From Pontiella agarivorans (GTDB taxonomy: Bacteria > Verrucomicrobiota > Kiritimatiellia > Kiritimatiellales > Pontiellaceae), in assembly GCF_034531395.1 (NCBI RefSeq), contig NZ_JARVCO010000006.1, positions 1 through 64,000 of the forward strand: a stretch of 64,000 nt of DNA. Reading direction: 5' to 3'. A program made the translations under genes and the position numbers. The notes beneath the pieces were generated by a model. The model saw nothing but the letters and a program-made list of their open reading frames with translations. It was not told the origin of the DNA and did not search any database. Below, piece after piece: positions 37,847 to 43,804 of the stretch. Numbering within the stretch: the stretch's first letter is position 1; every line of letters starts with the position of its first letter.

Positions 37847-38491
37847 CTATTTTTCATCTGTTTTCGCCGAATGAATCTCGGCAAAGTGAATATTGTAAAA
37901 GAGATTTTCGATTTCCTGCTCGATATTAATGTTGTGAATCAGGAAATCTTCGTCGCTTTTCAGCACAATCGGCGAAAAATTAATGACACCGCTGCAACAG
38001 GTTTTTTTCAGGGTTTCCACCATACTCTGGGCAGAGGGTTCGGGCACAGTCAAGGCGGCGACCTTAATTTTGTTGGCATCAATGAATTCGCGAATCCGTT
38101 TAATATGGAAAATCGGAATGGGTGCTTCGGCATCGAGTACCCGGGGATCGGAATCAAACGCAGCCACAACACGAATTCCAACCCTTGGAAATCCGTTATG
38201 ATTCATCAGGGCCTGACCCAGTTTCCCGCAGCCGATAATCACGATCTTCTGTTTTTTATCTTTTCCGAGCAGCACATTGAGCCGGGCAACGACATCGTCA
38301 ATCCGATACCCTCCGCGCTTATTCCCCGTGATATTGAACATCGAAAAATCTTTCCGCACCAACGACGCTGACACCCCGCAGGCATCGGCCAGATTATCGG
38401 AAAACACCTTCACCAACCCCAAAGCCTTCATTTTGCGCATCACATTACGGTATTTCGCCAGACGCCGGATGACTTCCTGATTTCCAACCAT
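37847..38491 (-). CDS. rex: Redox-sensing transcriptional repressor Rex
   Basis: 214 residues from ATG 38491; GGAG sits 6 nt upstream of it, whereas ATG 38503 has no ribosome-binding site. The N-terminal winged helix is FSDNLADACGVSASLVRKDF, with SMFNITGNKRGGYRID following. The Rossmann domain is VIIGCGKLGQALMNH, typical of Rex binding NADH/NAD+. Rex represses fermentation and hydrogen genes at low NADH and releases DNA when NADH is high. It is divergent from the hydrogenase operon, with two Rex-like palindromes in the spacer, so control of both units is very likely. The C-terminal domain-swapped helix (NIEQEIENLFYNIHFAEI) is present. Confidence 0.95.
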   Translation of the reverse strand: MVGNQEVIRRLAKYRNVMRKMKALGLVKVFSDNLADACGVSASLVRKDFSMFNITGNKRGGYRIDDVVARLNVLLGKDKKQKIVIIGCGKLGQALMNHNGFPRVGIRVVAAFDSDPRVLDAEAPIPIFHIKRIREFIDANKIKVAALTVPEPSAQSMVETLKKTCCSGVINFSPIVLKSDEDFLIHNINIEQEIENLFYNIHFAEIHSAKTDEK

Positions 38492-38496
38492 TGGAA
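38482..38496. repeat. Palindrome TTCCAA-CCA-TTGGAA, copy 1 (exact)
   Basis: A 15-bp site at the extreme 5' end of rex. It contains the preferred start codon (the CAT at 38489-38491 on the plus strand). One of five exact copies of TTCCAA-N3-TTGGAA in the window. Confidence 0.8.
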
Positions 38497-38506
38497 ACTC
38501 CATTTA

Positions 38507-38525: not shown

Positions 38526-38572
38526 AACTGCCAATTAGATGACTTGTTTTTGTAATTAATATTACCGGAATA

Positions 38573-38584
38573 TTGTATAAACAA
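38573..38584. promoter_or_regulatory. Candidate Rex operator 2 (hydrogenase side)
   Basis: TTGT-ATAA-ACAA, a 12-bp palindromic core matching the outer Rex half-sites. It is set in an AT-rich stretch about 75 bp before the structured leader, a suitable place to block a hydrogenase-operon promoter. Confidence 0.5.
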
Positions 38585-38659
38585 CGTCAAAGGCATTTTT
38601 TTTATTTACCTACTACCCACCAGTCTTTATTGCTCAGACCTTAGAACAAGAATGCGGCA

Positions 38660-38760
38660 GTGCTCTTGAGATGGGGTCTCAGGAAGCACCATGAACCGGG
38701 GGGTTCAAGCCGGGGCTGACAACCAGGGAATCAGCAGAACGCTGAATACGGGACTAGCCA
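38660..38760 (+). ncRNA. Candidate structured 5' leader (cis-regulatory RNA) of the hydrogenase operon
   Basis: About 100 bases fold into successive helices. First, a 12-bp bulged hairpin pairs GTGCTCTTGAGA (660-671) with TCTCAGG-A-AGCAC (677-689) around TGGGG. Second, TGAACC / GGTTCA (692-707) closes a GGGG loop. Third, GCTGA (715-719) pairs with TCAGC (731-735) across an 11-nt loop. The same TCAGC can instead pair with GCTGA at 741-745 across AGAAC. The two states exclude each other, as in switches and attenuators. The region is not coding on either strand and ends about 50 bases before the hndA start. I do not recognise a known riboswitch class. Confidence 0.5.
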
Positions 38761-38810
38761 GGGGAAGATCTTTTTAACGTACGAACAGACGCTACTGGAG
38801 GGTGGAGACG

Positions 38811-39293
38811 ATGACTGTTACTGCTGAAGAAAAAATGCTTACACCGGCCATCGACGCATTTATTGCGAAATGGAAGGAAAAGCCGGGCAACCTGATTATG
38901 GTCCTGCACCGCGTTCAAGAGGAGTTCGGCTACATTCCGCGACAGGCCGCCTTTGAAGTGGCCGAAGCCCTGGACATTCCGGTGGCGAAAATCTACGGCG
39001 TCATCACCTTCTATCACTTTTTCAAACTCACCAAACCCGGTCGAAACCGGATTGCGGTCTGCATGGGCACGGCCTGCTACCTTAAAGGCGGACAGGATTT
39101 GATTGAAGAATGCGAGCGCATCCTCGGCGTCGGCCTCAACACCGTGACCGAAGACGGTGAGTTCTCGGTGGAAGCGGTCCGCTGCATCGGTTGCTGCGGT
39201 CTCGCCCCGGTACTCACGGTGAACGGCGAAGTTTTCGGCAATGTCGACACCAAAGGCATGAAGAAAATCATCGAACAGTTCGAAGGGAAATAG
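38811..39293 (+). CDS. hndA: [FeFe] hydrogenase NuoE-like subunit (24 kDa, [2Fe-2S])
   Basis: 160 residues; ATG 38811 follows GGAGG by 9 nt (a GTG at 38802 overlaps that site and is rejected). The thioredoxin-like domain carries the four NuoE-type cysteines in VCMGTACYLKGG and AVRCIGCCGLAPVL, which ligate a [2Fe-2S] cluster. VLHRVQEEFGYIP at the N-terminus is typical of the family. As the first gene of the hnd operon it is the small electron-transfer subunit beside the flavoprotein HndC, in an NAD(H)-linked, probably electron-bifurcating soluble hydrogenase. Expected cytoplasmic. Confidence 0.95.
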   Translation: MTVTAEEKMLTPAIDAFIAKWKEKPGNLIMVLHRVQEEFGYIPRQAAFEVAEALDIPVAKIYGVITFYHFFKLTKPGRNRIAVCMGTACYLKGGQDLIEECERILGVGLNTVTEDGEFSVEAVRCIGCCGLAPVLTVNGEVFGNVDTKGMKKIIEQFEGK

Positions 39294-39296
39294 ACC

Positions 39297-39833
39297 GTGC
39301 ACGCCAGCGTCTGTGATCTGATTACCGATTTGGTCCAGAACGCGATCGAGGCGCATGCGGAAGAGATCATGCTGAACGTCGAAGAGACGGAAAAAAATAT
39401 TAAAGTCGTCATTCAGGACAACGGAAAAGGTATGAGTGCGGAAACACTGGAAAAAGCCAAAAACCCGTTCTGGTCGGACGGGAAACACCGGCACCGCAAA
39501 GTGGGCCTCGGCCTCCCCTTTCTTTTCCAAACGGTGGATATGACGGACGGATCGGCGGAGATCCAATCAGAAGAAGGAGTCGGAACCACAGTGACCTTCA
39601 ATCTTGATCCTCAACATGTGGACCTTCCAATGTTTGGAAATTTTGTATCCACCGCCGTCTCGCTGATGACTTACGAATTTGATGGAAACCTGACCGTGCA
39701 GCACAGCAGAAACAGCAGGAGTTATTCGGTCAGTAAAAACGATCTGACCGATGCTCTGGGCAACCTGAACAACCTGGAAAACATGGTCCTTCTCAAACAG
39801 TTTATACAAAGCAACGAAGAGGAACTCCGATAG
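39297..39833 (+). CDS. Stand-alone GHKL/HATPase-domain protein in the hydrogenase operon
   Basis: 178 residues starting at GTG 39297, 3 nt after hndA, with AAGGGA upstream. It is a bare ATP-binding domain of the histidine kinase/anti-sigma type: N-box LITDLVQNAIEAHAEE, G1 box IQDNGKGMS, G2 box KVGLGLPF and GVGTTVTF. There is no phospho-accepting His domain and no membrane segment. The last ~70 residues are unassigned. Similar proteins occur between hydrogenase subunit genes of other fermenters, so a role in regulation or assembly of the hydrogenase is likely but undefined. One copy of the TTCCAA-N3-TTGGAA palindrome lies in its coding sequence. Confidence 0.88.
   Translation: MHASVCDLITDLVQNAIEAHAEEIMLNVEETEKNIKVVIQDNGKGMSAETLEKAKNPFWSDGKHRHRKVGLGLPFLFQTVDMTDGSAEIQSEEGVGTTVTFNLDPQHVDLPMFGNFVSTAVSLMTYEFDGNLTVQHSRNSRSYSVSKNDLTDALGNLNNLENMVLLKQFIQSNEEELR
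39625..39639. repeat. Palindrome TTCCAA-TGT-TTGGAA, copy 2 (exact)
   Basis: Inside the HATPase gene, encoding LPMFGN. Exact match to the 15-bp motif. Confidence 0.8.
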
Positions 39834-42055: not shown

Positions 42056-43804
42056 ATGTCTATGATTGAAGCTGAAATCAACGGAATTCCCGTAAGCGTC
42101 CCTGAAGGCACCACCATCCTCAATGCCGCCAAAGAAGTGGGCGTACAGATTCCGAAACTCTGCTACCATTCCGACCTCGACGCCTGGGCCGCCTGCGGCA
42201 TCTGCGTGGTCAAGGTGGAAGGTTCCCCGAAAATGCTCCGCGCCTGCGCCACGGCTATTGCGCCGGGCATGAAGGTGCTGACCCACGACCCGGAAGTGGT
42301 GGAAGTCCGCCGCACGGTCCTGGAACTGATTCTTTCCACCCACCCGAACGATTGTCTGCAATGCGGCCGCTCCGGAAACTGCGAACTGCAGACCCTTGCC
42401 GCCGATTTCGGTATCCGTGAAATCCCGTTTGAAAAACGGGTTGAACATATCGAGCCGGACACTTCCACAACCTCGATTGTGCTGAATCCGGAAAAATGCA
42501 TCAAATGCGGTCGCTGCGTACTGGTCTGCCAGGAAATGCAGGGGGTCTATGCCCTCGAGTTTATCGGCCGCGGCGACGGTACCCGCCTGGCTCCGGCCGC
42601 CGATGTAAATCTGGAGGAGTCTCCCTGCATCAAATGCGGTCAATGCTCGGCCCACTGCCCGGTCGGCGCAATCTACGAAAAAGACGAAACGAAAATCGTC
42701 TGGGACGAAATCAAGAAACACGAAAAACACTGCGTGGTTCAGGTGGCCCCGGCCGTACGTGTCGCCATTGGCGAAGCATTCGATATGGAGCCCGGCGAGC
42801 TGGCTACCGGGCAGCTCTATGCCGCCCTGCGCCGCCTCGGTTTTGATGCGGTGTTCGACACCAACTTCTCGGCCGACCTCACCATTCTGGAAGAAGGCAC
42901 CGAATTTGTGAAGCGCTTCACCGAAGGCGGCGAACTTCCTCAGCTCACCTCCTGCTGTCCGGCGTGGACCGACTATATGGAAAAATTCGCCACCGACTTT
43001 ATCCCGAATTTCTCTTCGGCAAAATCGCCGCAGCAGATGCTCGGCGCCATGGCGAAAACCTATTATGCCGAAAAGGCCGATATTGAAGCCCGGGACATGT
43101 TTGTGGTTTCCATCATGCCCTGTACCGCCAAGAAATTTGAAGTCGGCCGCGACGATAACATGAACTCCACCGGTTTCCAGGATGTGGATGTGGCCCTGAC
43201 CACCCGCGAACTGGCCCGCATGATCAAGCAGGCCGGCATCGACTTCAAATCCCTTCCGGACGAAGAAGCGGACAGCCTGCTCGGCACTTATACCGGTGCC
43301 GGAACCCTCTTCGGTGTGACCGGCGGCGTGATGGAAGCCGCGCTGCGCTCCGCCTACTACCTGATCACCAAAGAAGATCTGGCCGACGTGAACTTCATGG
43401 AATGCCGCGGCCTCGAAGGAGTGAAAGAAGCCGAGATCGATATCAAAGGCACCAAAGTCCGCATTGCCATTGCCCATCAGATGGGCAACATCGAAGCCGT
43501 GCTCAACCGCGTCCGCGAAGCCAAAGCCAACAACGAAGAGACTCCATGGCACTTTATCGAAGTCATGGCCTGTCGCGGCGGTTGCATCGGCGGCGGCGGT
43601 CAGCCCCACGGCGCAACCGACGAAGTCCGTCTGAAACGTACACAGGGCATCTATGCTGACGACGAAAAATCGGTGCAGCGCTGCTCTCACCACAATCCGG
43701 AAATCACCCGTATCTACGAAGATTTCCTGGGCGAACCCTGCAGTCACAAAGCACACGAACTGCTCCACACCGATTACATCGAGCGGGCAGCCTACAAGAA
43801 ATAA
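42056..43804 (+). CDS. hndD: [FeFe] hydrogenase catalytic subunit, group A
   Basis: 582 residues; AAGGAG precedes the ATG. N-terminal [2Fe-2S] domain (C36, C47, C50, C64), His-ligated cluster (H96, C100, C103, C109), then two [4Fe-4S] clusters (C148-C158 and C191-C201). All three H-cluster motifs are intact: TSCCPAW (C300, C301), MPCTAKKFE (C356), and EVMACRGGCIGGGGQP (C506, C510). The first Cys of TSCC is the expected proton-transfer residue. With HndA-C it should couple H2 production to NADH and ferredoxin oxidation during sugar fermentation. HydE/F/G maturases are not in the window. Confidence 0.98.
   Translation: MSMIEAEINGIPVSVPEGTTILNAAKEVGVQIPKLCYHSDLDAWAACGICVVKVEGSPKMLRACATAIAPGMKVLTHDPEVVEVRRTVLELILSTHPNDCLQCGRSGNCELQTLAADFGIREIPFEKRVEHIEPDTSTTSIVLNPEKCIKCGRCVLVCQEMQGVYALEFIGRGDGTRLAPAADVNLEESPCIKCGQCSAHCPVGAIYEKDETKIVWDEIKKHEKHCVVQVAPAVRVAIGEAFDMEPGELATGQLYAALRRLGFDAVFDTNFSADLTILEEGTEFVKRFTEGGELPQLTSCCPAWTDYMEKFATDFIPNFSSAKSPQQMLGAMAKTYYAEKADIEARDMFVVSIMPCTAKKFEVGRDDNMNSTGFQDVDVALTTRELARMIKQAGIDFKSLPDEEADSLLGTYTGAGTLFGVTGGVMEAALRSAYYLITKEDLADVNFMECRGLEGVKEAEIDIKGTKVRIAIAHQMGNIEAVLNRVREAKANNEETPWHFIEVMACRGGCIGGGGQPHGATDEVRLKRTQGIYADDEKSVQRCSHHNPEITRIYEDFLGEPCSHKAHELLHTDYIERAAYKK

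Follow-up and report, generated by a model that had tools for sequence, protein, structure and literature searches.

The hnd operon of Pontiella agarivorans is preceded by a structured region with a conserved G-rich core, and this region was a good candidate for a previously uncatalogued leader RNA of narrow distribution, although not a demonstrated riboswitch. The window, meaning the whole stretch of 64,000 nucleotides that was analysed, carries the 18-nt core GGGACTAGCCAGGGGAAG at 38750..38767 (+ strand). The core is conserved and linked in cis to hndA, the element occurs as a single copy, and its folding is non-random. The earlier note on this DNA had proposed a possible new cis-regulatory RNA laid out as a switch or attenuator. 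The first part was upheld, since a conserved, structured leader outside Rfam was found before the hydrogenase operon, but the switch or attenuator was not. Our preferred reading, to which we give slightly less than an even chance, is a structured element, restricted to this lineage, in the 5' UTR of the Pontiella hnd operon; it would act post-transcriptionally and offer its G-rich core to a trans-acting factor. The element is presumably transcribed and regulatory. Which factor binds, and whether its effect is positive or negative, are guesses.

The first gene, hndA (38811..39293, + strand), codes for a [2Fe-2S] thioredoxin-like subunit (PF01257, E 5e-48). It is followed by genes for a HATPase-domain protein, a small protein without a Pfam match, a NuoF-like subunit and the catalytic (large) subunit of the [FeFe] hydrogenase (42056..43804, + strand; PF02906, E 5e-94, and PF02256). 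The HATPase_c-domain gene (histidine-kinase-like ATPase; 39297-39833) is the second hnd gene in most of the genus. A rex-like gene for a redox-sensing repressor (37847..38503, − strand; PF06971 and PF02629) is divergent from hnd. An inverted repeat, GTAATTAATATTAC and TTGTATAAACAA, lies at 38552-38584 and is largely kept in the rex-hnd spacer genus-wide; these are likely Rex or other operators. A link to rex is shared with Solidesulfovibrio, where the hnd promoter of S. fructosivorans has a predicted Rex site (PMC10084766). However, the Pontiella element lies downstream of the promoter, and the accessible text of that source does not mention a leader RNA for the Solidesulfovibrio hnd operon.

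Upstream of hndA, most same-genus genomes have a T-run, TTTACC, 15-16 nt and T[AT]TAT[TGC]. The window carries this layout as TTTACC-N15-TTTATT (38605..38631, + strand), which a simple sigma-70 scan missed. Transcription probably starts near 38638, judging from this promoter-like element. The earlier note had named a start downstream of 38760 as evidence against its claim, and the probable start lies upstream of the element. The predicted 5' leader is 173 nt long (38638..38810, + strand) and ends at the hndA ATG at 38811, with the Shine-Dalgarno sequence GGAGGG (38797..38802, + strand) 8 nt before it. Among the same-genus loci that share the promoter-like element, some leaders are only 35-45 nt long and others about 130-173 nt. 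Since the promoter-like element was kept even in relatives with short leaders, the conserved element would lie inside the 5' UTR.

The folding of the leader was consistent with a structured RNA. The segment 38654-38770 (117 nt) gave −44.1 kcal/mol with z −3.3, and only 1 of 200 dinucleotide shuffles was as good, while the longer leader 38640-38810 folded at only z −1.4. Three hairpins before hndA, two of them with G-rich loops, had been described from the letters, and all three were recovered at 38660-38689 (TGGGG), 38693-38706 (GAACC-GGGG-GGTTC) and 38731-38745. The 5' stem-loop (38660..38689, + strand) is built from GTGCT/AGCAC and CTTGAGA/TCTCAGG. The second hairpin, hairpin b, extends to TGAACC-GGGG-GGTTCA (38692..38707, + strand), and its counterpart in relatives is GGAACC, a G-rich stretch and GGTTCC. 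In the minimum free energy fold, a closing helix CGGC/GCCG (38655..38712, + strand) encloses the 5' stem together with the G-loop hairpin. A second domain (38714..38759, + strand) is formed by the closing helix GGCTG/TAGCC and the inner hairpin TCAGC-AGAAC-GCTGA (38731-38745). Both the closing helix and the second domain were predicted in the sister species G025 as well, and not in other members.

Leaders of 19 same-genus genomes, including that of the window (G000), were gathered by HndA protein search. A DNA search gave G025 as the single close relative, with a leader 83% identical over 126 nt. The core stands before hndA in six genomes (G000, G025, G009, G001, G017 and G024), and 14-18 of its 18 bases agree. 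At four-fold degenerate sites of rex, hndA and the two genes that follow, identity among these six was 37-64%, so that the conservation of the core was far above that of four-fold sites. The six carriers form one clade in the concatenated protein tree (support 86). A covariance model (R1) recovered these six members and no other strong match in 58 genomes, always directly before hndA; in the model seed (A2), the extra segment of G000 and G025 was spliced out and the other four sequences were left natural. Outside the clade, the leader of G004 matched R1 with 20 bits (E 1e-4, filters off), and it is probably a diverged member. Weak R1 matches in G020 and in other classes (G054, G043, G046 and G056) were inspected in sequence and taken as apparent chance. 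The small membership, six clear cases within one clade plus one probable outlier, counts against the preferred reading.

The distribution of the element was narrow. The 4.4 Mb genome of G000 has a single occurrence of the motif CCAGGGGAMGR, and the element was a single strong copy per genome, which ruled out a dispersed repeat or mobile element. A scan of 84,980 species with the core pattern returned three Pontiellaceae and 11 other matches. These 11 all lay within open frames with no hndA nearby, and they were therefore read as chance. No viral contigs with HndA were found. In several same-genus species, the hnd leaders were unrelated or very short. The long hnd leaders (about 130-155 nt) of L039, L041, L044, L047, L048, L050 and L052 had unrelated, species-specific hairpins at a similar overall length; possibly they represent one common, fast-evolving leader. 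The element shares with Rfam families the form of a structured leader before an operon, but no family matched it. None of the 4227 families of Rfam 15 reached gathering in the window and 15 leader loci, and none fitted the leader even at E 5.

The earlier note had named a lack of covariation in homologous leaders as refuting; some covariation was seen, in the 5' stem. Each of the six leaders has a stem that ends at most 4 nt from hairpin b, and very little of the sequence of this stem is shared between lineages. The positional conservation of this 5' stem gave a combined shuffle p of 3.5e-4 across the six members, and against G025 one pair was changed on both sides, from U-A to C-G. However, hairpin b and the 3' hairpin d showed solely one-sided consistent changes, and double-sided covariation was nearly absent there. 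Hairpin d (CTAGCC-AGGGGAA-GGTTAG and variants) was present in four members. It is impossible in the two sister species G000 and G025; there, TAGCC is paired with GGCTG. The strongest constraint was on the core and not on any helix, which made the docking of a trans-acting factor at the core the most economical reading.

According to this reading, transcription would start from the promoter beside the rex-like gene, and the element would act after the start. The 5' stem-loop and one or two more hairpins would hold the G-rich core, which in most members reads CCAGGGACTAGCCAGGGGAAG, about 45-60 nt before the start codon. The core would be the docking site of the factor, either an RNA-binding protein or a small RNA with a C-rich loop, and the bound factor may set how well the hydrogenase mRNA is translated or how stable it is. 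G-rich leader targets of such small RNAs are an established kind, as with the C-rich loop of GsrN on katG (PMC5869019). In both systems, the 5' leader of a redox gene contains a G-rich stretch, but no complementary small RNA is known here. No perfect 11-nt complement of the core was found elsewhere in G000, and so there was no obvious small-RNA partner.

An unlikely alternative is that the leader is neutral or matters merely for stability, with hairpins that arose by local duplications as in many Pontiella spacers. The different species-specific hairpins in other Pontiella hnd leaders and operon spacers were consistent with this, and so was the fast turnover of leader sequence outside the clade. 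However, it leaves unexplained how 14-18 of 18 core bases were kept across lineages with such low identity at four-fold sites.

In leaders controlled by CsrA, such as those of the Bacillus hag type, GGA motifs are located in hairpin loops or linkers. The Pontiella hnd leader likewise has GGA motifs in loops and linkers, and the genome has a csrA-fliW-flagellin module. The GGA motifs of the core might be CsrA sites that tune hydrogenase translation, as for flagellin, but we consider this distinctly unlikely. GGGGA is displayed in the loop of hairpin d, and the linker CAGGGA matches the ANGGA pattern. The csrA gene was present in exactly 5 of 25 genomes (G000, G001, G004, G009 and G025), and each of these five carries either the element or, probably, a diverged form of it. 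The hypergeometric value of this co-occurrence was about 0.002 (19 same-genus genomes, 7 carriers) and is uncorrected for relatedness; the carriers, however, are mostly one clade. In addition, GGA counts in the element leaders were not above those of element-free long leaders. The core was intact in G017 and G024, which have neither CsrA nor FliW (both drafts, about 94% complete), so csrA was not found wherever the element was kept. The flagellin leaders of the csrA genomes have a different, canonical hairpin, ACACAAGGAYGTGT. The absence of CsrA and FliW in these two carriers and the unlike hairpin CACAAGGAYGTG of the flagellin leader in the same genomes as the element made CsrA a rival and not the answer. 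As a separate observation, a near-perfect canonical CsrA hairpin, AACACAAGGAYGTGTT, stands before the first flagellin gene in csrA-fliW-flagellin clusters (L121:521, L122, L123, L124 and L125), and the L125 version is GCACAAGGATGTGC.

It is similarly improbable that the conserved units work at the DNA level, as CCnGGG operators of a transcription factor spaced about 10-14 bp apart downstream of the promoter. In G017, the spacings between the units CCAGGGGG, CCGGG, CCAGGG and CCAGGGG are about 14, 11 and 10 bp, and inverted repeats can mimic stems. However, a segment of about 25 nt is inserted between the units in G000 and G025, and positions of about +60 to +130 are unusual for operators. The variable yet complementary 5' stem fits an RNA better.

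We regard as very unlikely a new, narrow class of regulatory RNA for electron-bifurcating [FeFe] hydrogenase whose G-rich core senses a redox-linked ligand or an RNA-binding protein. Ligand sensing by the leader is unsupported. The weakest reading, a metabolite or metal riboswitch or an attenuator, is highly improbable. A redox operon with a structured leader, G-rich loops and no Rfam match would suit it, but the distribution is very narrow and the junctions are poorly conserved. The choice of two structures that had been read from the letters was confirmed only as to its segments, as GCTGA (38715-38719), TCAGC (38731-38735) and GCTGA (38741-38745) were present exactly. The alternative itself was not above chance. 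Pairing of 38715 with 38731 had a probability of 0.00, and the forced fold was less stable by 5.7 kcal/mol. An arrangement of this kind, in which a 5-mer is flanked on either side by its complement, occurred in 4% of shuffles and 8% of 101-nt windows across the 64 kb. Only G000 and G025 have the segment needed for the choice, and it was missing in the other four of the six members. No intrinsic terminator (a G+C-rich stem followed by a U-run) was found on the + strand in 38638-38810. The leader thus showed neither two mutually exclusive folds, one of them controlling a terminator or the Shine-Dalgarno sequence, nor the terminator of an attenuator.

Two further candidates were rejected. A small upstream peptide had no conserved reading frame, and the ATGs of the window leader were lost in G025. 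A possible G-quadruplex was not conserved as such, since four G3 tracts were present in five of the leaders and the sixth, that of G001, has GG as its second tract.

The regulation of bifurcating hydrogenases has been discussed mainly at the promoter (Rex). In marine Kiritimatiellota, a conserved leader RNA would mean an additional, post-transcriptional level of control. A literature search found no riboswitch work in the phylum Kiritimatiellota. With its defined 18-nt core and its six natural variants, the element is amenable to testing.

Further repeats were observed within the operon. In G026, which has a short hnd leader, a copy of the core motif, GGGGGATTAACCAGCCAGGGGAAGC, lies before the third gene (L045, about 730-750, − strand). 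The spacers between hndA and the HATPase gene have species-specific imperfect inverted repeats (of the TACTGCGTACTACG and GTGAAACGTGA types) in L038, L039, L040, L042, L044, L045, L048, L050 and L052. Such operon-spacer repeats were found in many Pontiella genomes, and the window, with a 6-nt spacer, is without them.
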